A model generated the notes under the pieces. It ran no database searches, had not been told where the DNA came from, and was given only the letters and a program-made list of their open reading frames with translations. Source: Myxococcota bacterium (GTDB taxonomy: Bacteria > Myxococcota_A > UBA9160 > SMWR01). From it: 45,428 bases of DNA. The position numbers and the translations under genes are program-made. Shown here in pieces: positions 26,227 to 35,924 of this stretch (position 1 is the stretch's first letter; every line of letters starts with the position of its first letter). The DNA is taken from positions 1-45,428 of the forward strand of contig JBCCEW010000037.1 in the NCBI GenBank assembly GCA_039030075.1, read 5' to 3'.

Positions 26227-27270
26227 CTAGCGAAAGCCCAGCGCCTGCATGTCGACGCGGTTGCGCAGCGGCTCCCCGCGCGCGAAGCGCTGGAGGTTGT
26301 CCTCGAAGAGATCGAAGACGTCGTCGACGTAGCGGTCGACCGAGACCGAGGAATGGGCCGACACCCAGAGGTTCGGCGCGTCCCAGATCGGGCTGTCGGC
26401 AGGCAGGGGTTCGGTCTCGAAGACATCGAGCGCCGCCGCGGACAGCTGGCCCGAAGCGAGGGCGTCGAGGAGCGCGGCCTCGTCGACCAGCGATCCGCGC
26501 GCGACGTTCACGAGCACCGCGCCGGACTTCATCGCGGCCAGGGCCGCGCGGTCGATGAGGTGGTGCGTCTCGGGTGTGGCCGGTGCGGTCACGACGACAC
26601 CGTCGCACTGGGCCAGCATCTCGTGGAGCCGGTCGGTGCGGAAGATCTTGTCGGCCGCGTCCGGGTCGCCTTGTTCGGGGTTGCGCTTCGTCGCGAGCAC
26701 CCGCACGCCCATCGCCCGCGCGCGTTGGGCCACCGCCGCACCGATGTGTCCGAGCCCGACGATCCCGATCACCGAGCCGGCGAAGCTGCGCCCGTAGGTG
26801 CGCACGTACTCGTGCTTGCGCTGGTAGGCCTCGGCCTCGGGGAAGCGTTTCCAGATCTGCAGGAGCCGACCGATCACGAACTCGGCCATCGACCCGGCGC
26901 TGACGCCCGACGCATTGGTCACCACGACCCGGTCGCGGGTGACGCCCGCCGCCACGAACTGGTCGACGCCGGCGCCCAGGCCCTGCAGCCAACGCAAACG
27001 CGGTGCGAGCTGCATCAGGTCCTTCGGCGTGTGGAGCTGGATCAGGACCTCCGCGCGCGCGAGCGCCCGGCGCCGCTCGTCCTCGCAACCGACCGCCCAG
27101 CGCGGCGGTTCGTCGTGGGGACGGTCGGGGGGCACGGTCACCCAGTCGGTGTCGGGGTCGACGGGCATGCCCACCACCTCGATGCGCGGATCGATGGCCC
27201 GCACCCGTGCCACGTAGCGATCGGCGAGCAGGGCGGGGTAGCCGAGGCACACGACGAGGGGCTCGCTCAC
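26227..27270 (-). CDS. D-2-hydroxyacid dehydrogenase family protein
   Basis: This 347-residue NAD-dependent dehydrogenase is of the D-isomer 2-hydroxyacid family. VIGIVGLGHIGAAVAQRARAMG is the Rossmann motif, and the catalytic Arg (NVARGSLVDEAALLDAL), Glu (DVFETEPLPADSPIWD) and His (WVSAHSSVS) are all in place. TNASGVSAGSMAEFVIG is the substrate-domain signature. I chose GTG at 27270 (AGGG 9 bases upstream); an in-frame ATG at 27309 has no ribosome site. It probably reduces a 2-ketoacid. It is divergent from the MarR-UGSC operon. Confidence 0.9.
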   Translation of the reverse strand: MSEPLVVCLGYPALLADRYVARVRAIDPRIEVVGMPVDPDTDWVTVPPDRPHDEPPRWAVGCEDERRRALARAEVLIQLHTPKDLMQLAPRLRWLQGLGAGVDQFVAAGVTRDRVVVTNASGVSAGSMAEFVIGRLLQIWKRFPEAEAYQRKHEYVRTYGRSFAGSVIGIVGLGHIGAAVAQRARAMGVRVLATKRNPEQGDPDAADKIFRTDRLHEMLAQCDGVVVTAPATPETHHLIDRAALAAMKSGAVLVNVARGSLVDEAALLDALASGQLSAAALDVFETEPLPADSPIWDAPNLWVSAHSSVSVDRYVDDVFDLFEDNLQRFARGEPLRNRVDMQALGFR

Positions 27271-27331
27271 GACTCCATCCCTAGCGCATCTCCGGGTCGC
27301 GCCGGCCATCCCGGGCTGGGGCGAAATTTAT

Positions 27332-27355
27332 CTTGCCAGAAAGCTTTCTCGAAAG
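27332..27355. promoter_or_regulatory. Putative MarR operator of the UGSC operon
   Basis: The perfect 12-base palindrome AGAAAGCTTTCT (27338-27349) is extended by CTT (27332-27334) and AAG (27353-27355) placed symmetrically. It is an AT-richer island in the divergent region, 32 bases upstream of the MarR ATG and 62 upstream of the hydroxyacid dehydrogenase start. It is likely the site of the MarR encoded next to it. Confidence 0.6.
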
Positions 27356-27386
27356 TATAAGGGCGGAGGAGGCGCGCGAGCAACGC

Positions 27387-27884
27387 ATGAGCTGGATCGA
27401 CGAGCTCTCCGAAGCCTGGCAGCGGGAGCACCCGGACTACGACACGGCGACGCTCCCGCCGATGGTGCGGCTGGCGCGGCTGGCTCTGCTGATCGACGGG
27501 TTCCAGCACGACGTGCTCGCACCCTATCGACTGAGCGCTGGCGACTACGGGGTGCTGGCGGCCTTGCGCCGCGCGGGGGCTCCCTATCAGCTGAGACCGA
27601 GCATGCTCTACAGCCGGCTGCAGCGATCCTCGGGCGGCATGACCAAGACGCTGGGTCGCCTCGAAGAGCGCGGCCTCGTGGCACGCACGCCCGATTCGCT
27701 CGATCGACGCGGATCGCTCGTTTCCCTCACGCGCAAGGGGCGGGCGCTGCAAGAGGAGGTGTTCCGCGCCTATCTCGAAGCGACCGAGGACCTGCTCGAG
27801 CCGTTCTCCGAAACCCAGCTGAAGGACACGGACCGCGTGCTCGAGGCGCTGCTCGCGCTCTTCGAGGGAAGGGCGGCGTCGTGA
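27387..27884 (+). CDS. MarR-family regulator, first gene of the UGSC operon
   Basis: This 165-residue winged-helix regulator shows the MarR pattern: LLIDGFQHDVLAPYRLSAGDYGVLAALRRAG, recognition part LYSRLQRSSGGMTKTLGRLEERGLV, and wing RTPDSLDRRGSLVSLTRKGRAL. I chose the ATG at 27387; an upstream TTG (27333) would run through the operator-like palindrome. Its stop overlaps the start of the next gene by four bases (GTGA), so it is co-translated with the UGSC-partner gene and probably governs the whole operon. Confidence 0.9.
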   Translation: MSWIDELSEAWQREHPDYDTATLPPMVRLARLALLIDGFQHDVLAPYRLSAGDYGVLAALRRAGAPYQLRPSMLYSRLQRSSGGMTKTLGRLEERGLVARTPDSLDRRGSLVSLTRKGRALQEEVFRAYLEATEDLLEPFSETQLKDTDRVLEALLALFEGRAAS

Positions 27885-28921
27885 CCGAGGAGTTCGAGCT
27901 CTCGGCCGATACGCCCGAAGCGCTGTTGGAGCTGTTCGAAGCGAAGGGGCTCGGCGACGGGTTGCCGCTCGTTCCGCCGACGCGCGACCGGGTAGATGCG
28001 ATGCTCGCGGCCTCAGGGGAGGGCGACCTCGACCCCGACGAGGTGATCGCCACCCTCGAGCCGCGGGCGGGGGAAGCGACCCGGCGTGCGGTCGCGATCA
28101 ACGCGGTGCTGGCCGGTTGTACTCCGGGGGTCTTGCCCGTCCTGGTGAGCGCCGTGCGCGGGCTTGCGCGTCCCGAGTTGAACCTGCGGGGGGTGAACGC
28201 CACCACCCATCCGGTGGCGCCGCTCCTGATCGTGCACGGGGCGGTCGTCGCCGAGCAGGGCTTCAACGCGGGGCTCGGGACGTTCGGTCCGGGCCATCGC
28301 GCGAACGCGACCGTCGGCCGGGCGATCCGCTTGATCCTGATGCACATCGCTGGCGCCCGGCCCGGTGCCGGTGATGCCTCCAGCCAAGGACAACCGTCGA
28401 AGTACACCTACTGCATCGCCGAGAACGAGGGCGCCTCACCGTGGGAGACCTATCCGCGCAGCGTCGGCGTCGAGGCTCCGAGCGCGGTCACCCTCCACTG
28501 CGGTGAGAACCCGCACAACTTCCACGACATGGAGAGCGAGGCGCCCGAGGCGATCCTCGACAAGGGCGCGAGCGTGATGGCGACGCTCGGGTCCAACAAC
28601 GCGCCCGTGTCTTCGGCCGAGTTCTTCGTGGTGCTCGGTCCCGAGCACGCGGCGACGATCGCGGGCGCCGGCTGGAGTCGGCGCGACGTGCAGTCGTATC
28701 TGTACGAGCGCGCGCGGCTGCCGGCTCCCGTGCTGCGCGGTGCCTTCGACGTCGTCCAACATCGTCCTTGGCACCAGGCGTTGCCCGCAGATGCGCCACT
28801 CCCGATCACCGATCACCCCGACAACCTCCGCGTGCTCGTCGCCGGTGGGGCGGGGAAACACTCGTGCGTCATCCCGAGCTGGGGGATGACCCGCAGCGTG
28901 ACGCTGCCCGTCGAAGCCTGA
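27881..28921 (+). CDS. Conserved protein of unknown function, UGSC partner
   Basis: This 346-residue protein begins with GTG at 27881, overlapping the MarR stop. I do not recognise a named domain. It has no membrane segment. Striking stretches are LEPRAGEATRRAVAINAVLAGC, GPGHRANATVGRAIRLILMH, KYTYCIAENEGASPWETYPR and IPSWGMTRSVTLPVEA; five cysteines are scattered. The density of Gly, Asn and acidic motifs suggests an enzyme. It ends 63 bases before the UGSC selenoprotein gene and shares its operon, so the two may form a complex or act in successive steps. That link is inference from position. Confidence 0.75.
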   Translation: MTEEFELSADTPEALLELFEAKGLGDGLPLVPPTRDRVDAMLAASGEGDLDPDEVIATLEPRAGEATRRAVAINAVLAGCTPGVLPVLVSAVRGLARPELNLRGVNATTHPVAPLLIVHGAVVAEQGFNAGLGTFGPGHRANATVGRAIRLILMHIAGARPGAGDASSQGQPSKYTYCIAENEGASPWETYPRSVGVEAPSAVTLHCGENPHNFHDMESEAPEAILDKGASVMATLGSNNAPVSSAEFFVVLGPEHAATIAGAGWSRRDVQSYLYERARLPAPVLRGAFDVVQHRPWHQALPADAPLPITDHPDNLRVLVAGGAGKHSCVIPSWGMTRSVTLPVEA

Positions 28922-28984
28922 ACCGCGCGGGCCGCACGCTGGCCCGGGCGAAACGGACCGCGCAACGGTCCGAGAGGAGCCTCC

Positions 28985-29524
28985 ATGAAGATCCTGTCTC
29001 CCGAAGGCACGGTGGGGACGCGCGGGGTCGTACTCGCAGCGCCGCCCGCGCAACTCGCCGGCCGACGCATCGCGGTGCTCGACAACGGCAAGCCCGGGGC
29101 GGCGCTCGTGATGACGCGCATCGCCGAGCGGCTGGTCGAGCGCGCGGGCGTCGAGTTCGTGGGCCTACACCGCAAGCGCACGGCCGCGACCCCCTGCGAA
29201 GAGGGATTGCTCGGCGAGATCGCCGACGGCGCGGACCTCGTGCTGACGGGGCTGGCCGATTGAGGCTCGTGCACGTCGTGGAGTCTCCACGACACGGCAC
29301 GGTTGGAAGCCCTCGGTCGACCCACGGTGGTCGTAGCGACCGAGCGGTTCGCGGATCTCGCCCGGCAGTCGGGCCAGGAGATCGGGCTCGATGACGCGCG
29401 CCTGGTGGAGGTCGCGCATCCGGTGGGAGGCGTCCCCGAGGAGGCACTGCGCAGGCGCGCCGAGTCGGCGACGGACGGTGTGATGCAGCGGCTCCTCGGC
29501 CGCGTGGGAGGAAACGATGGGTAG
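28985..29524 (+). CDS. UGSC-family selenoprotein
   Basis: Read through TGA at 29261-29263, this is a 179-residue protein with selenocysteine at residue 93. The family motif appears exactly as LAD-U-GSC-TSWSLHDT, and the flanking VLDNGKPGAALVMTRIAERL, ATPCEEGLLGEIADGADLVL and LEALGRPTVVVATERFADLAR segments match UGSC proteins, in which the first position is Sec or Cys. U93 and C96 form a CxxC-like redox pair. A strong SECIS-type hairpin follows the TGA. The frame continues unbroken to 29524 and overlaps the next start by eight bases. A good GAGAGGAG site precedes the ATG. The reaction of the family is not established to my knowledge. A gene caller would report two fragments (28985-29263 and 29303-29524). 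Confidence 0.93.
29275..29293 (+). promoter_or_regulatory. Bacterial SECIS hairpin of the UGSC gene
   Basis: GUCGUGGA (29275-29282) pairs perfectly with UCCACGAC (29286-29293) around the loop GUC. The stem begins 12 nt after the UGA and the loop GU is at 20-21 nt, matching the geometry of bacterial SECIS elements recognised by SelB. Confidence 0.88.
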
Positions 29525-30617
29525 GTTCGGGCACTACGTAATCGATGCGGATGGGCACGGCGGCGAGCCGCTGGGCTGGCGCCGGCGAATCCCGGGGAAG
29601 TTCACTGCGACGATGCGCGACTACGTCGCGAGCATGCGCGCCCAGTACGCGAGCGTCCCGGGCGCGGGCCAGCGTGCCGCGGACGCGAGCCCGGCGATTC
29701 CCGGCGAGGACGATCTGGAGTTCGCGGTGCCCACCCAGCCGGGCATGTTCGACGCGGAGAAGCGTCTGCCGGACATGGATCTCGAAGGCATCGACGTCGC
29801 GGTGCTCTTTCCGCCCGGCTCCGGAGAGGAGTGGGCGATGGACGACGTGGACTTTGCCGTGGCGCTCTGCCAGACGCTGAACGATGCCCGGGCCGAGTAC
29901 GCGAGCGTTGCGCCCGAGCGTCTCAAGCTCGTCGCGAAGCTCCCCATGATGGAACCGTCGGCGGCCGCCGAAGAGCTCGAGCGCTGCGTCACCCTCCACG
30001 GGTTCGTCGGCATGGTGACCGCGACCCACATCCGCGACAAGAATCTGGACGACCCGAGCTTCGACGTCGTCTGGGAGACCGCTCAGCGCTACGGCGTGGC
30101 CGTGTGTACCCACGGCGGCGGCCAGGCGCCGGGTCAGACGCCCTTCGCCATCGATCGCTTCGACACCCGCCTGGGCGTGCACGCCCTCACCCATCCGCTC
30201 GGCGCCATGCAGGCCGTGTTCAACTTCACGGTGGGCGGGATCCTGGCCCGCTTCCCCGAGCTGCGAGTCGGCTTCCTCGAGGCGGGGGTGGGCTGGTTGC
30301 CCTTCTGGCTCGAACGTCTCGACGAGCACTGGGAGCTGATGCCCGACCAGGCGCCCGGGATCGATCGACCCCCGTCCGAGTACTTCCTCGGGCGCTGCTT
30401 CCTGACCACCGAGCCCGACGAGAAGATGGTTCCCTACGTGTTCGAGAGCGTGGCGGAGGACATCGTCTGCTACTCCTCGGACTACTGTCACTTCGATTGC
30501 GCGTTTCCCGACTCGGTGAGCATTCTCGAGAAGCGCAGCGACCTGAGCGATCGGGTGAAGCAGCGGCTCTTCTCCGCGAACGCGGCGAAGCTCTACTCCC
30601 TGGAGCCGCCTGCGTGA
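29517..30617 (+). CDS. Amidohydrolase-2 (ACMSD-like) family protein
   Basis: This 366-residue metal-dependent hydrolase or decarboxylase has the TIM-barrel features of the amidohydrolase-2/ACMSD group: an N-terminal DADGHGG in place of the common HxH, DLEGIDVAVLFPPG, VVWETAQRYGVAVCTHGGG (metal His), RFPELRVGFLEAGVGWLPFWLERLDEHWE, and a late IVCYSSDYCHFDC with the catalytic Asp. The first metal-binding motif is therefore altered (D-x-D-G-H). It starts inside the 3' end of the selenoprotein gene (8-base overlap), so the two are translationally coupled and probably act on the same compound. Confidence 0.9.
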   Translation: MGRFGHYVIDADGHGGEPLGWRRRIPGKFTATMRDYVASMRAQYASVPGAGQRAADASPAIPGEDDLEFAVPTQPGMFDAEKRLPDMDLEGIDVAVLFPPGSGEEWAMDDVDFAVALCQTLNDARAEYASVAPERLKLVAKLPMMEPSAAAEELERCVTLHGFVGMVTATHIRDKNLDDPSFDVVWETAQRYGVAVCTHGGGQAPGQTPFAIDRFDTRLGVHALTHPLGAMQAVFNFTVGGILARFPELRVGFLEAGVGWLPFWLERLDEHWELMPDQAPGIDRPPSEYFLGRCFLTTEPDEKMVPYVFESVAEDIVCYSSDYCHFDCAFPDSVSILEKRSDLSDRVKQRLFSANAAKLYSLEPPA

Positions 30618-30627
30618 GCCTGATCGC

Positions 30628-31434
30628 GTGATCGATACCCACACCCACGTGATCGCGGCGGACCACGGGCGCTACCCCCTCGACCCTCGCCCGCTGTCGG
30701 GGCCGTGGTATCTGGAGGCGCCCCACACCGCCGAGGAGCTGGCGGCCTGCATGGACGACGCCGGGGTCGAACAGGCCGTGTTGGTGCAGGCGGTGGGCGC
30801 CTACAGCTACGACAACGCGTATGCGGCAGACGCGGCGCAGTCCCAACCGGCTCGTTTCGCGAGCGCCTGCTGCATCGACGCCACTGCTGACGCGGCGGTC
30901 GACACGCTGCGCCATTGGGTGCGCGACCGCGGCATGCACGGCGTGCGGCTCTTCGCCCTCGCGCGCGAGGCGCCGTCCTGGCTGGTCGATTCGCGCACCT
31001 TCCCGCTCTGGGAAGAGGCGGCCGCACTCGGCATCCACGTGATCGTGACGATCTTTCCCCACCAGCTCGGCGAGCTCCGCGACGTACTGCGGCGGTTTCC
31101 CGAAGTGCGCGTGTCCCTCGATCACTGCGGGTTTCCGGAAGCAAGTGCGCCAGAGCCGCTCTTCGCGCTGGCCGCAGAGGCGAACCTCCTGTGCAAGGTG
31201 TCGTCGGTCGTGCTCGAGTCGGCCGGGGAGGGCGCCGAGGCCTTCGTAACCACCCTGGTGGGGCGCTTCGGAGCCGAGCGCGTCATGTGGGGGTCCGACT
31301 TCTGCCAGACCCATGACCGTCCCTACCGGGCGCTGGTCTCCCTTGCGGAACGCTGCTTTGCAGGCCTGACGTCGTCCGAACGCGAACGTTGCTTCGTCTC
31401 GACGCCGCGCTCGGTCTGGCCGAGCCTTCGCTAG
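30628..31434 (+). CDS. Amidohydrolase-family protein (lactonase-like)
   Basis: This 268-residue TIM-barrel hydrolase begins at once with the metal motif DTHTHV (residues 3-8). VRVSLDHCG and RVMWGSDFCQTHDR supply further metal ligands and the catalytic Asp of the amidohydrolase-2 group (2-pyrone-4,6-dicarboxylate lactonase and relatives). It lies 10 bases after the first amidohydrolase; two such enzymes in sequence suggest successive hydrolytic or decarboxylating steps. Confidence 0.9.
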   Translation: MIDTHTHVIAADHGRYPLDPRPLSGPWYLEAPHTAEELAACMDDAGVEQAVLVQAVGAYSYDNAYAADAAQSQPARFASACCIDATADAAVDTLRHWVRDRGMHGVRLFALAREAPSWLVDSRTFPLWEEAAALGIHVIVTIFPHQLGELRDVLRRFPEVRVSLDHCGFPEASAPEPLFALAAEANLLCKVSSVVLESAGEGAEAFVTTLVGRFGAERVMWGSDFCQTHDRPYRALVSLAERCFAGLTSSERERCFVSTPRSVWPSLR

Positions 31435-31466
31435 CGGGGCGGGTCGAAGCCAACCCCGGAGGACGC

Positions 31467-32831
31467 GTGGATACCCAGGCGGAAGATCGACAGCGCGCAG
31501 GCGACCCGAAGCCGCCCTCGCGTCTCAACACGGCCTACGTGCTGTGGATGGTCTTCCTGGTGATGATCTTCAACAACGTCGATCGCACGATCCTCTCGAT
31601 TCTCGTGCGTCCGATCCAGGCCGAGTTCCAGCTCAACGACACCCAGATGGGCTGGCTCCTCGGGCCGGCCTTCGCGCTGGTCTACTCGGTCCTTGCCCTG
31701 CCTCTCGGCCGCTACGCCGACGCGGGGGGCGTGCGCCGCACGATCGTCGCCGTCTGCCTGTTCGTCTGGAGCGGCTTCACGGCGGGCACCGCGCTCGCGC
31801 AGAGCTACTGGCAGATCTTCCTGATGCGGATGGGCGTGGGCGTCGGCGAGGCGGGAGCCACCGCACCCAGTGTCTCGATGCTCTCGGACATCCTGTCGCC
31901 CGCCGCGCGTGCGCGGGGCATGTCGGTGATCTCGATCGGCGCCGTCACCGGGATGGGCATCGGCATGATCTTCGGTGGCTGGATCGAGGAGCTCCACGGT
32001 TGGCGCGTGGCGTTTCTCGCGGCCGGCCTGCCGGGCATCGCCCTCGCGATCCTGTTCCGGCTCACGATCCGCGAGCCGGTGCGAGGTGCGAACGAGGGCC
32101 GCAGTGCCGCCCAGAACCCCGAGTTCCTGCCCGCCCTCCAGTTCCTGATGGGCTCGCGGACCTACCGCTTCATCCTGCTCGCCAACGCCTTCGCCCTGTT
32201 CGCCGCGATGGGGCGGAACCTGTGGGAGCCCTCGTTCCTGATCCGCAGCTATGGCCTCACCGAGTTCACGGCCGGCACCTGGTACTTCCTCACGAGCCCG
32301 GTGCCGTCGATGTTCGGGATCTTCCTCGGCGGCACCCTCGCCGACCACTTCGGGCGTCGCGACAGCCGCTACTACATGTGGGTGCCGGCGCTGGGTCAGC
32401 TGGCGAGTGTGCCGCTCCTGGTCGCGTTTCTTCTCTGGCCCGTGGACGACACGATCCCGCTGCCGGGGTTCCTGACGATCGCCGGGCTCCAGGCGTTGCC
32501 GGTCGCCTTCGTGCTCAGCTTCGTCGGTTCGATTCTGGGATCGTTCTTCACCGCGCCCTTCATCGCGACGATCCAGGGCGTCGCCCCGCTACGCATGCGC
32601 GCGTTCGCAGCCGCGGTGTCCTCGTTGATCAGTACGCTCGTCGGCCTGACGGCGGGACCCTTGCTCGTCGGAGCGGTCTCGGATGCGTTCACTGCGCGGT
32701 TCGCCCATGAAGCACTGCGCTACTCGCTCCTCGTACCCACCCTCGCGCCACTCTTCGGCGTGCTGGTCTGCTTCCTCGGCGCGAACAGCGTCGGGCGCGA
32801 CATGGACCGGGTGAGGGCCGCGAATGTGTAG
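31467..32831 (+). CDS. MFS transporter, spinster-like
   Basis: This 454-residue, 12-helix MFS carrier starts with GTG at 31467 behind GGAGG. Signature stretches are IFNNVDRTILSILVRPIQAEF, FALVYSVLALPLGRYAD and RMGVGVGEAGATAPSVSML, the same Spns-like pattern as the carrier at 10900. It lies 32 bases after the second amidohydrolase and is the last closely packed gene of the UGSC operon. It probably imports or exports the compound handled by the operon. Confidence 0.9.
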   Translation: MDTQAEDRQRAGDPKPPSRLNTAYVLWMVFLVMIFNNVDRTILSILVRPIQAEFQLNDTQMGWLLGPAFALVYSVLALPLGRYADAGGVRRTIVAVCLFVWSGFTAGTALAQSYWQIFLMRMGVGVGEAGATAPSVSMLSDILSPAARARGMSVISIGAVTGMGIGMIFGGWIEELHGWRVAFLAAGLPGIALAILFRLTIREPVRGANEGRSAAQNPEFLPALQFLMGSRTYRFILLANAFALFAAMGRNLWEPSFLIRSYGLTEFTAGTWYFLTSPVPSMFGIFLGGTLADHFGRRDSRYYMWVPALGQLASVPLLVAFLLWPVDDTIPLPGFLTIAGLQALPVAFVLSFVGSILGSFFTAPFIATIQGVAPLRMRAFAAAVSSLISTLVGLTAGPLLVGAVSDAFTARFAHEALRYSLLVPTLAPLFGVLVCFLGANSVGRDMDRVRAANV

Positions 32832-33002: not shown

Positions 33003-33704
33003 ATGAGCCCTGCCGCCGAGTACACGATTCAAGGTCAGACCGTGCGCATCCCCTGCGTGGTGCGCGATGCATCGTCGGGGACCGCCCTCTACATGGTCGA
33101 TGCGGCGGCGGCCCAGAAGCTCGTCCCGAGCGCATTCGAGGTGGTGGAAGCCGCTCCGGGCCAGACCCAGGCGACGGTCGTGATCGTCGACTATCGCGAC
33201 AACGACCTCGGCGACTACGACGAAGTGGGCATCGTCTTCTTCGTGCGCCCGGCGGGCCAGCCCGACGCCGAGATGGGCTCGTACATCTACAAGCTCCCCG
33301 TGAACCAGGGCTTCACCTGCGAAGCCGGGGTCGAGATCTGGGGCTTCCCGAAGACGGTGGAAGAGATCGATTTCAACTACGCCGAGACGAGCGCCACCTG
33401 CCGGCTGTCGATGGGCGGCCGGCACGTGCTGACGCTCACCGTGCCCCGCGGCGGCGATGGCACCACCGATGACACGGCGGCGACCGGCTACACGATGATC
33501 GAAGGCATTCCCCACAAGAACGAATTCACCCGCGGTGGTTCCGGCGAACAGACGATTCCGGGCGGTGAGGGCGTGGTGCTCGAGTTGGGGACCCACCCTC
33601 TCTCCGACGAGCTGCGCTCGCTCGGCCTCGAGGGTGCCACGCCGGTGCTCTCCGCCTGGTCGGAGCACATGCGCGGGAGTTTCGGCCAGAGCGAGAAGCT
33701 CTAG
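33003..33704 (+). CDS. Acetoacetate decarboxylase-like protein
   Basis: This 233-residue protein resembles the acetoacetate decarboxylase (ADC) superfamily: ALYMVDAAAAQKLVPSAFEVVE, DYDEVGIVFFVRP, YIYKLPVNQGFTCEAGVEIWGFPKTVEEIDF. The Trp-Gly-x-Pro-Lys segment corresponds to the family's strand carrying the Schiff-base lysine region. Members include decarboxylases and aldolase-dehydratases acting on keto acids. A CCGGAG site precedes the ATG. It lies 171 bases after the MFS gene and 87 before the AOR gene. Confidence 0.85.
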   Translation: MSPAAEYTIQGQTVRIPCVVRDASSGTALYMVDAAAAQKLVPSAFEVVEAAPGQTQATVVIVDYRDNDLGDYDEVGIVFFVRPAGQPDAEMGSYIYKLPVNQGFTCEAGVEIWGFPKTVEEIDFNYAETSATCRLSMGGRHVLTLTVPRGGDGTTDDTAATGYTMIEGIPHKNEFTRGGSGEQTIPGGEGVVLELGTHPLSDELRSLGLEGATPVLSAWSEHMRGSFGQSEKL

Positions 33705-33791
33705 ACGGCACCGACACGATCAGGGCGGGCCGTCACCGTTCGCAGCATTCCCAGCTACCCATGAAGGCAGCTACCAGAGAGGGACAGGACC

Positions 33792-35606
33792 ATGGACGCA
33801 CGCACCTTCGGGCGCGACATCGCCCACATCAACCTCACAGCGGGGACGGTCGAGAAGCGGCCGGCGCCGGAAGGCTGGGTCCAGAAGTACATCGGCGGCC
33901 GCGGTCTCGGCGTGCGCTACGTGCTCGAGAACGGCGCGGACGTCGACCCGCTCTCGCCAGAGAACATCCTCTGCTTCATGAACGGTCCGCTCTCGGGCAG
34001 CGAGACCAGCATGAGTGGCCGCTGGGCCGCGGTGACGAAGTCGCCGCTCACGAACACGGTCACCGACAGCCACCAGGGCGGCTGGAGCGCCGCGCGCGTG
34101 CGCTGGGCCGGCTTCGATGGCCTCGTCTTCGAGGGGAAGGCCGAGACGCCGGTCTACGTATTCATCGAAGACGGCGAGATCTCCATCCGCGACGCGAGCG
34201 ACAGCTGGGGGAAGGGCATCCACGAAACCGTCTCCTTCTACCAGGAACGCTACGGGGCGAAGAACCTCTCGGTGAATGCGATCGGTCAGGCCGGCGAGAA
34301 CCTCTCGCGCTTCGCGGTCTGGGTCAACGAGGACGATCGCGCCTTCGGTCGCGGCGGCACCGGCGCCGTTGGCGGCAGCAAGAATCTGAAGGCCATCGTC
34401 GTCCGCGCGGCCCACAAGAAGAGCACCGTGCCCGACAAGCAGCAGTGGACCGGCGCGCGAAAGCTCGCGCTCGACACGATCCGCGACGAGAAGAACATCA
34501 CGAGTCCGCGGAAGGGCGGCCTCTCTCTCTACGGCACGAACGTGCTCATGAACGTGACCAACAGCATCGGCGCGCTCGGGGTGCGGAACAGCCAGCTGAC
34601 TTCCTTCGGTGAGCGGGCGGAAACCCTGTCGGGCGAGTACGTCGAAGAGCACCTGCTCTCCGGGAACCCGACCTGCCATGCGTGTCCGGTCGCCTGCAAG
34701 AAGGAGGTCGAGATCACCGACGGCCGCTGGAAGGGCCTCAAGATGGAGAGCGTCGAGTACGAGCCGGCCTGGGCGCTCGGCGCCAACTGCGACGTCGACG
34801 ACGTCCGTTCGGTCGCGAAGCTGATCGACCAGTGCAACGACTACGGCCTCGACCCGATCGAGCTGGGCAACGTCTACTCGGTCTTGATGGAGTGCAGCGA
34901 GGCCGGGCTGACCAACGGCGAATCGCTCGCGTGGGGCGACGACGACGCCATGGTCGATCTGACCGAGAAGCTCGCCCTGCGTCAGGGGATCGGCGACCAG
35001 CTCGCCGATGGCGCCGTGATCGCGGCCCGCAACCTCGGACGCCCCGAGGCGGCGATGGCGGTGAAGGGCCAGGCGGTGCCGGCCTACGACCCGCGCGGTT
35101 TGAAGGGCATGGGCCTCGGCTACGCCACCAGCAATCGCGGCGCCTGCCACCTGCGGGCCTACGTCGCCGCGGCCGAGCTGGGCGTGGTCGACATCGAGGC
35201 CGACCCGCTCGAGTGGAAGGGGAAGGGCGAGCTCGTCCGCATCTTCCAGGACCTCGCTGCCTTCTCGGACAGTCTGGACCTCTGCAAGTTCAGCGCCTTC
35301 GCCCAGGGAGCCGACGAGTACGCGGTCCAATGGAGCGCGGCGATGGGAATCGAATGCACGGCGGACGACGTCATGAAGGCGGGCGAGCGCGTCTACAACC
35401 TCGAGCGCTACTACAACAACCTCGCCGGCTTCGGTGCGGGGAGCGACACGCTCCCGAAGCGGTTCACCGAAGAGGCGTCCACCCTCGCCGGATCCAAGGG
35501 GCACGTCTCCGAACTCGACCAGATGCTCGTCGAGTACTACGCCGTGCGCGGCTGGGAAGACGGGGTCGTGCCGGCCGCGAAGCTCGCCGAGCTCCAGATC
35601 CCGTAG
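33792..35606 (+). CDS. aor: Aldehyde:ferredoxin oxidoreductase (tungsten type)
   Basis: This 604-residue enzyme is full length for the AOR family. The N-terminal domain has KYIGGRGLGVRYV and SGRWAAVTKSP, which bind the pterin cofactor, and GRGGTGAVGGSKNLKAIVV is the family signature. The [4Fe-4S] ligands are C295-x2-C298-x3-C302 (CHACPVAC) and C498 (SLDLCKF), almost the same spacing as in characterised archaeal AOR. It oxidises aldehydes to acids with reduction of ferredoxin, using a tungsten- or molybdenum-bis-pterin. The MoaD-like gene for pterin sulfuration lies convergent, 39 bases downstream. Metal and aldehyde are unknown. Confidence 0.95.
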   Translation: MDARTFGRDIAHINLTAGTVEKRPAPEGWVQKYIGGRGLGVRYVLENGADVDPLSPENILCFMNGPLSGSETSMSGRWAAVTKSPLTNTVTDSHQGGWSAARVRWAGFDGLVFEGKAETPVYVFIEDGEISIRDASDSWGKGIHETVSFYQERYGAKNLSVNAIGQAGENLSRFAVWVNEDDRAFGRGGTGAVGGSKNLKAIVVRAAHKKSTVPDKQQWTGARKLALDTIRDEKNITSPRKGGLSLYGTNVLMNVTNSIGALGVRNSQLTSFGERAETLSGEYVEEHLLSGNPTCHACPVACKKEVEITDGRWKGLKMESVEYEPAWALGANCDVDDVRSVAKLIDQCNDYGLDPIELGNVYSVLMECSEAGLTNGESLAWGDDDAMVDLTEKLALRQGIGDQLADGAVIAARNLGRPEAAMAVKGQAVPAYDPRGLKGMGLGYATSNRGACHLRAYVAAAELGVVDIEADPLEWKGKGELVRIFQDLAAFSDSLDLCKFSAFAQGADEYAVQWSAAMGIECTADDVMKAGERVYNLERYYNNLAGFGAGSDTLPKRFTEEASTLAGSKGHVSELDQMLVEYYAVRGWEDGVVPAAKLAELQIP

Positions 35607-35645
35607 TCGGCGGTCGCTGCCAGCCTCGTCCGGAGCCCGTTACGG

Positions 35646-35924
35646 CTAGCCCCCGGCGACCGCCGGGATGAACTCGATCGTGTGATGCGTGTCGACGATC
35701 GTGTCGAGGCCGTCGACGAGGTACTTCGAGCTGCGCCCGTCGACGAAGACGTGCACGTAGCGATTCAGTTGCCCGTCGTCGTCCAGGACTTCTGCGGCGA
35801 GGTCCGGGTAGGCCGCGACCACCGCGTCGACGACGGCGCGCAGGGAGCACGACTCGGGGACCGAGACCTCGACGTGCTTCTGTCCCACGATCTTGCGCAG
35901 GGTGGCGAAGAAGCTGACCCGCAT
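35646..35924 (-). CDS. MoaD/ThiS-family sulfur carrier
   Basis: This 92-residue ubiquitin-fold protein ends in the required Gly-Gly (PAVAGG), whose C-terminus is adenylated and thiocarboxylated. FFATLRKIVGQKHVEV, NRYVHVFVDGRSSKYLVDGLDTIVDTHHTIEFIP are typical of the MoaD branch that accompanies AOR genes. It would deliver sulfur for molybdopterin synthesis. The start at 35924 has no ribosome site; TACACT, 7 bases upstream on the minus strand, could be a -10 box of a leaderless mRNA. Convergent with AOR. Confidence 0.9.
   Translation of the reverse strand: MRVSFFATLRKIVGQKHVEVSVPESCSLRAVVDAVVAAYPDLAAEVLDDDGQLNRYVHVFVDGRSSKYLVDGLDTIVDTHHTIEFIPAVAGG

Follow-up and report, generated by a model that had tools for sequence, protein, structure and literature searches.

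The window analysed here is the whole 45,428-nucleotide stretch of contig JBCCEW010000037.1 from a Myxococcota bacterium (assembly GCA_039030075.1), and the locus of interest is a run of six genes on its forward strand downstream of a sigma-70-like promoter that we read from the sequence at 27333–27361 (TTGCCA-N17-TATAAG, with a palindrome in the spacer). The genes encode a MarR-family regulator (27387–27884, with its ATG at 27387 in a frame open from 27333), a 346-aa partner protein without a named family (hp; 27881–28921, GTG start), a 179-aa UGSC-family selenoprotein with Sec93 and Cys96 (28985–29524), two Amidohydro_2 enzymes of 366 and 268 aa termed AMH2a (29517–30617) and AMH2b (30628–31434), and an MFS transporter (31467–32831, GTG start in a frame open from 31389). 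A D-2-hydroxyacid dehydrogenase gene lies on the minus strand, divergent from the promoter (26227–27309; PF02826, 192 bits). The six genes had been described as tightly packed, and every overlap and gap proved correct upon recomputation: MarR and hp overlap by 4 bases (27881–27884) and UGSC and AMH2a by 8 (29517–29524), and gaps of 63, 10 and 32 bases separate hp from UGSC, AMH2a from AMH2b, and AMH2b from the transporter gene. Located 3′ of the operon, at 33003–35924, are genes that by eye encode an acetoacetate-decarboxylase-family protein, an aldehyde ferredoxin oxidoreductase and, on the opposite strand, a MoaD-like protein.

The regulator matched PF12802 (MarR_2; 38.5 bits, cut-off 27) and also exceeded the cut-off of PF01047 (28.6 bits). 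Both amidohydrolases matched PF04909, with 85.4 bits for AMH2a and 121.8 bits for AMH2b (cut-off 26.4), and neither reached the cut-off of any NCBIfam equivalog model; the NCBIfam models nearest to AMH2b are those of lactonases and fell far below cut-off (34.6 bits for a fuconolactonase model that needs 400). The transporter scored 122.1 bits against PF07690 (MFS_1), and its best NCBIfam models are organic-acid symporters, every one below cut-off. An Rfam scan of the whole window returned zero matches. An AMH2a-type gene also follows UGSC at four related loci (L001, L002, L005 and L064). Because the 5.76-Mb genome contains just 26 Amidohydro_2 genes and the nearest relatives keep the arrangement MarR-...-hp-UGSC-AMH2a, the six-gene cluster is not a product of chance.

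The palindrome, AGAAAGCTTTCT, occupies 27338–27349 between TTGCCA (27333–27338) and TATAAG (27356–27361), which are spaced by 17 bases. Our consensus promoter scanner missed this pair of hexamers because it demands a T as the last base of the second one. Palindromes of 12 bases are common in this GC-rich window (n = 33). At L001 and L005, MarR is also preceded by a palindrome, there of 18 bp (GCCAGAAAGCTTTCTGGC), and at L064 and L002 by a shortened or degenerate one. The operator-like palindrome that the original prediction had placed ahead of the operon is thus located in the promoter spacer and kept before MarR in four relatives. As read from the sequence, a putative regulator site that overlaps the promoter is the picture of an autoregulated MarR operon.

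The UGSC frame runs through a TGA at 29261–29263 (Sec93 of the U-G-S-C motif) to a TAG at 29522–29524, and the protein matches both NF041046 (127.6 bits, cut-off 125) and PF24696 (147.6 bits, cut-off 25) over the full length of the profile. The SECIS element inside the gene (29261–29302) consists of the UGA followed by an 8-bp stem (29275–29282 with 29286–29293) closed by a GUC loop, and the RNA 3′ of the UGA has a minimum free energy of −21.6 kcal/mol (z −2.47). Among relatives, all 8 pairs are intact in 67 of 77 distinct Sec sequence windows versus 0 of 15 Cys windows, pair 21–27 alternates between G-C (54) and C-G (23), and the loop reads GU plus G, C or U in every Sec form and in no Cys form. 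The genome also contains SelB (322.6 bits, threshold 242) and tRNA-Sec (69.7 bits, threshold 47). Judged from these signals, the UGA of the window is very probably read as selenocysteine. The tRNA-Sec model gave two matches above its gathering score, at C16:112081–112175 (69.7 bits) and C3:54022–54111 (51.2 bits), the second of which may be another long-variable-arm tRNA. On a plasmid of Paracoccus ferrooxidans (L168), hp and a selB gene are no more than 4 kb apart.

A genome scan with hp alone resulted in 80 loci (L001–L080), and UGSC was nearby in 75 of them: in 70 it directly adjoins hp in the same orientation, and in 5 inserted genes (1.3–3.7 kb) lie between the two. UGSC was absent at the other five loci, two of which (L045 and L068) stop at a contig edge. 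The reverse test started from the UGSC family: 49 of 282 genomes of the window's phylum have UGSC, and hp adjoins it in 28 of the 29 loci that were fetched. Because the pair is conserved from both sides and spans several bacterial phyla as well as haloarchaea, the absence of conserved linkage that would have spoken against the original prediction is rejected for hp and UGSC. The gene order is hp-UGSC in 67 loci and UGSC-hp in 8, the reversed order occurring in Chloroflexota and haloarchaea, and since both orders exist, the linkage has outlived rearrangement. Single fused UGSC-hp proteins were found in three plasmid examples (Sporomusa, Vibrio and Variovorax), and several UGSC copies per genome occur. 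In the Sporomusa and Vibrio fusions (L131:9320–11041 and L133:7362–9044), which adjoin aconitase X and DUF126, MGTS replaces UGSC and both redox residues are gone, so that not every family member can be a redox protein; nearly all members other than these retain Sec or Cys.

The remaining genes are less constant, and strict conservation among the six is confined to hp and UGSC. MarR was seen only in the loci of close relatives, and the partner enzymes vary by lineage (SDR, D-2-hydroxyacid dehydrogenase, DmdA-like, MttB-like, CoA transferase/lyase or aconitase X). We therefore rejected the six-gene set as one conserved pathway; as the partner enzymes change between lineages, hp-UGSC is better described as a reusable module. 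What stands of the inducible pathway that had been proposed is an inducible-looking operon, with a conserved operator in its promoter, and a selenium-dependent redox component.

The suspected co-occurrence with amidohydrolases was borne out, as 37 of 81 loci have one no more than 4 kb from the pair. The density of amidohydrolase-like genes is 0.085 per kb within 4 kb, 0.015 per kb at 4–8 kb and 0.0045 per kb genome-wide, and the resulting enrichment (5.5-fold over the 4–8 kb zone, ~19-fold over the genome of the window) overstates the number of independent events because many loci are related. AMH2b homologues occur near the pair in more than 20 loci. Among 115 distinct neighbour proteins, Amidohydro_2 is the most frequent Pfam family (10), followed by short-chain dehydrogenases (8), D-2-hydroxyacid dehydrogenases (5) and luciferase-type oxidoreductases (5). 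Counting the window with its divergent gene, 18 of 81 loci have a homologue of the D-2-hydroxyacid dehydrogenase no further than 4 kb from the pair, and none has one at 4–8 kb; the divergent gene of the window is a probable associate of the operon. A DmdA-like gene was found near the pair in 18 loci and an MttB-like gene in 9, and the plasmid loci contain TRAP, TTT, TAXI and ABC importers, CoA transferases and lyases.

Two of these arrangements recur in a fixed form. Acidimicrobial loci (L020, L024, L028, L034, L035, L067, L071 and L073) share a conserved cluster of GMC oxidoreductase, DmdA-like methyltransferase, hp, UGSC, SDR and PhyH genes, in which the DmdA-like protein scores 363 bits where 410 are needed for DMSP demethylase. 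At L029, L055, L056, L063 and others, an MttB-like methyltransferase gene is divergent beside hp, UGSC and a 2-hydroxyacid dehydrogenase gene, which hints at methylated amines or related substrates.

Evidence for an electron donor came from related pairs. In the second pair of the same genome (G000:C18, L204:1211–2680, minus strand), a thioredoxin-like domain is fused N-terminally to hp and followed by a Sec-containing UGSC. Some 20 further genomes of the phylum have the same thioredoxin-hp fusion, in which CPTC is invariant and is accompanied by a cis-proline motif of the VPTL type (VPTLI in the second copy), and the only PDB matches of a profile of 19 sequences of the fused domain are thioredoxins (best E 3.5e-6). 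In Arthrobacter the genes form a tandem trxB-trxA-hp-UGSC, and 8 of 16 plasmid neighbourhoods, among them archaeal ones such as that of Haloterrigena, encode a TrxB-like flavoprotein no more than ~5.3 kb away from the pair; TrxB was found near the pair in none of the loci L001–L080. Because of the fusion, the tandem and the plasmid loci, thioredoxin is most likely the electron donor. No thioredoxin gene or domain adjoins the window's own pair, for which the same donor is suggested by the pairs of relatives.

UGSC was modelled (pLDDT 91.7) as a flavodoxin/CheY-like domain of alternating beta-alpha units with five strands, in which Sec93 is located just ahead of helix 94–109. Among solved structures it most resembles B12-binding and CheY-like domains (~120–127 residues aligned, Z up to 11.6), and no thioredoxin is among the matches listed; so common a fold says nothing on function. 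In the published sources on UGSC (PMC2398784, PMC13188914), a thioredoxin-like fold is assumed and no function is given, and our model suggests that reviews placing UGSC among thioredoxin-like folds are probably wrong on the fold.

We compared UGSC with profiles of PrdB-like selenoproteins that were fetched via PF07355. The two profiles align with Sec on Sec (hhalign 92%, E 6.5e-7), over 76 residues only, and the value is 92.2% with UxxCT masked, compared to at most 6.7% for 60 column shuffles and at most 16% for 23 unrelated families encoded at the loci of the pair. A candidate relationship to one half of Asp/Glu racemase was rejected (profile similarity 2.8% at most). By the direct PF07355 (GRDB) test UGSC is not a GrdB/PrdB member, as there was no match at E 10 for the window's UGSC and none listed for any of 51 members; the Pfam GRDB model seems to reach no further than the Sec. 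The profile alignment suggests that UGSC is plausibly related, remotely, to the Sec domain of GrdB/PrdB and works like it. The pyruvoyl subunit family PF09338 (GrdE/PrdA) gave 0 matches in 131 genomes of the phylum in a search run without a positive control. The same genome also encodes a PrdB-like selenoprotein with UPMCT (L084, contig C23, ~51393–51743). Because matches to Pfam GRDB break off at the UGA, genes of PrdB-like selenoproteins are likely truncated in annotation.

The original prediction called the 346-residue protein unrecognised, and hp indeed has no family in either database: there was no match in NCBIfam and none in Pfam even at E 10. It contains about thirty invariant residues, including D26, G27, C80, T108, T109, R147, C178, E181, W188 and D216, a pattern that would fit an enzyme active site. 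Its structure model (pLDDT 91.5) has no clear relative among solved structures. The best matches in a fold search, class I fumarase and cyclic amide hydrolases of the Toblerone fold, were rejected as a guide to hp (E ~1e-3, VIA Z below 6, rmsd 5 to 7 Å over the longer alignments). Searches of solved structures with the hp profile and with the UGSC profile gave nothing significant, and the hp profile showed no relation to the PrdB-like and UGSC profiles.

Taken from the sequences, the Sec signals, the pair and its fusions, the thioredoxin or TrxB linkage in relatives, the remote homology and the catabolic neighbours incline us towards the view that hp and UGSC are one two-component, thioredoxin-reduced selenoenzyme reductase with changing substrates, which bacteria and haloarchaea most likely plug into differing organic-acid catabolic pathways. 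We infer a physical complex of the two proteins; the substrate, the bond cleaved, the order of steps and the direction of uptake are likewise assigned conditionally. In such a complex it would be chiefly hp that binds the substrate, and the Sec93 selenol, at the helix start after a strand of the flavodoxin-like domain, would attack an electrophilic site, leading to reductive cleavage of a C-N, C-S, C-O or C-halogen bond. Cys96 would then resolve the Se adduct to a selenenylsulfide, which thioredoxin and thioredoxin reductase would reduce. In the window, the pair would serve a catabolic operon under MarR control, whose MFS carrier is of the organic-acid type; AMH2a and AMH2b might act on the substrate or product by opening or decarboxylating it, and the divergent 2-hydroxyacid dehydrogenase would probably take part. 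A more far-reaching version is possible, and we advance it tentatively: the pair may be a new class of thioredoxin-driven selenoenzyme, kin to the GrdB/PrdB Sec domain, with hp, whose fold is unassigned, replacing the pyruvoyl subunit, that carries out substrate-specific reductive cleavage in aerobic catabolism in bacteria and haloarchaea.

We regard it as unlikely that hp-UGSC is a protective thiol/selenol oxidoreductase, which would shield the catabolic enzymes from peroxide, disulfide or electrophile and leave the growth substrate untouched. Published reviews place UGSC with Trx-like redox proteins, but our model is flavodoxin-like instead, and the kinship is to PrdB/GrdB, which act on substrates. 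The adjoining enzymes differ widely, as protection would allow, yet they are consistently accompanied by transporters and are catabolic. The UxxC motif with its thioredoxin/thioredoxin reductase linkage suits antioxidant selenoproteins; a large and very conserved hp is unexpected for a simple antioxidant, and multiple copies in one genome also argue against it.

It is improbable that the pair works non-reductively, as a lyase, isomerase or hydratase whose Sec or Cys does no more than act as a nucleophile in the manner of Asp/Glu racemases, with thioredoxin just keeping it reduced. The Sporomusa and Vibrio forms, beside aconitase X and devoid of both redox residues, would suit this reading, but nearly all other members keep Sec or Cys; the weak matches of hp to class I fumarase and cyclic-amide hydrolase structures are not significant, and the profiles show no similarity to Asp/Glu racemases (at most the value given above). 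Least probable is a MarR-regulated system for detoxification and efflux of a xenobiotic electrophile, with the amidohydrolases and the selenoprotein inactivating and the MFS protein exporting it. MarR next to MFS is a frequent efflux arrangement and the operator is located in the promoter, but the top MFS models, though below cut-off, are organic-acid symporters and related pairs accompany TRAP, TTT, TAXI and ABC importers, CoA transferases and lyases.

Under the reductase reading, the near-obligate partner, the thioredoxin fusions and the link to glycine and proline reductases make UGSC amenable to testing as an enzyme system, and the window's operator offers a way to the inducer and thence to the substrate. 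If true, the reductive selenol chemistry of anaerobes also serves ordinary organic-acid catabolism. According to PMC2398784, UGSC proteins rank among the most abundant selenoproteins of aquatic metagenomes.

The system had been put forward as undescribed, which holds in part. UGSC was published in 2008, as was a protein in which it is fused with the conserved domain 'Unknown_1', probably hp (PMC2398784); the papers searched list UGSC in selenoprotein catalogues only and assign it neither a function nor a required partner nor a link to thioredoxin. The protein of the window shares with the UGSC family (NF041046, PF24696) the motif, the SECIS element and a full-length match over both curated cut-offs, and differs from the published picture in its predicted flavodoxin-like fold, its near-obligate partner and its thioredoxin/thioredoxin reductase links. 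AMH2a and AMH2b both belong above cut-off to the Amidohydro_2 enzymes (PF04909), which comprise ACMSD-like decarboxylases and COG3618-like lactonases. The fluoroacetate-induced farACEB operon for fluoroacetate reductase in Cloacibacillus encodes an MFS carrier and GrdB/GrdE proteins (PMC10838667). It resembles our locus in combining an inducible MFS carrier, a GrdB-type Sec protein and a partner, with Sec proposed to attack a substrate carbon, but it belongs to an anaerobe and has GrdB/GrdE proteins in place of UGSC, hp and amidohydrolases. From GrdB/PrdB themselves (PF07355; glycine, sarcosine, betaine and D-proline reductases) the present system differs in the missing direct PF07355 match, in the pyruvoyl subunit, not found among the 131 phylum genomes in that uncontrolled search, in an hp unlike any known subunit and in its aerobic-type catabolic neighbours. 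Both have UxxCT at a helix start after a strand, the 'LE..G.PTV' landmark, a link to thioredoxin and multiple paralogues, each belonging to a separate substrate operon, and the cycle proposed here resembles the Sec-selenol chemistry that has been suggested for the substrate-specific selenoprotein B of those reductases.
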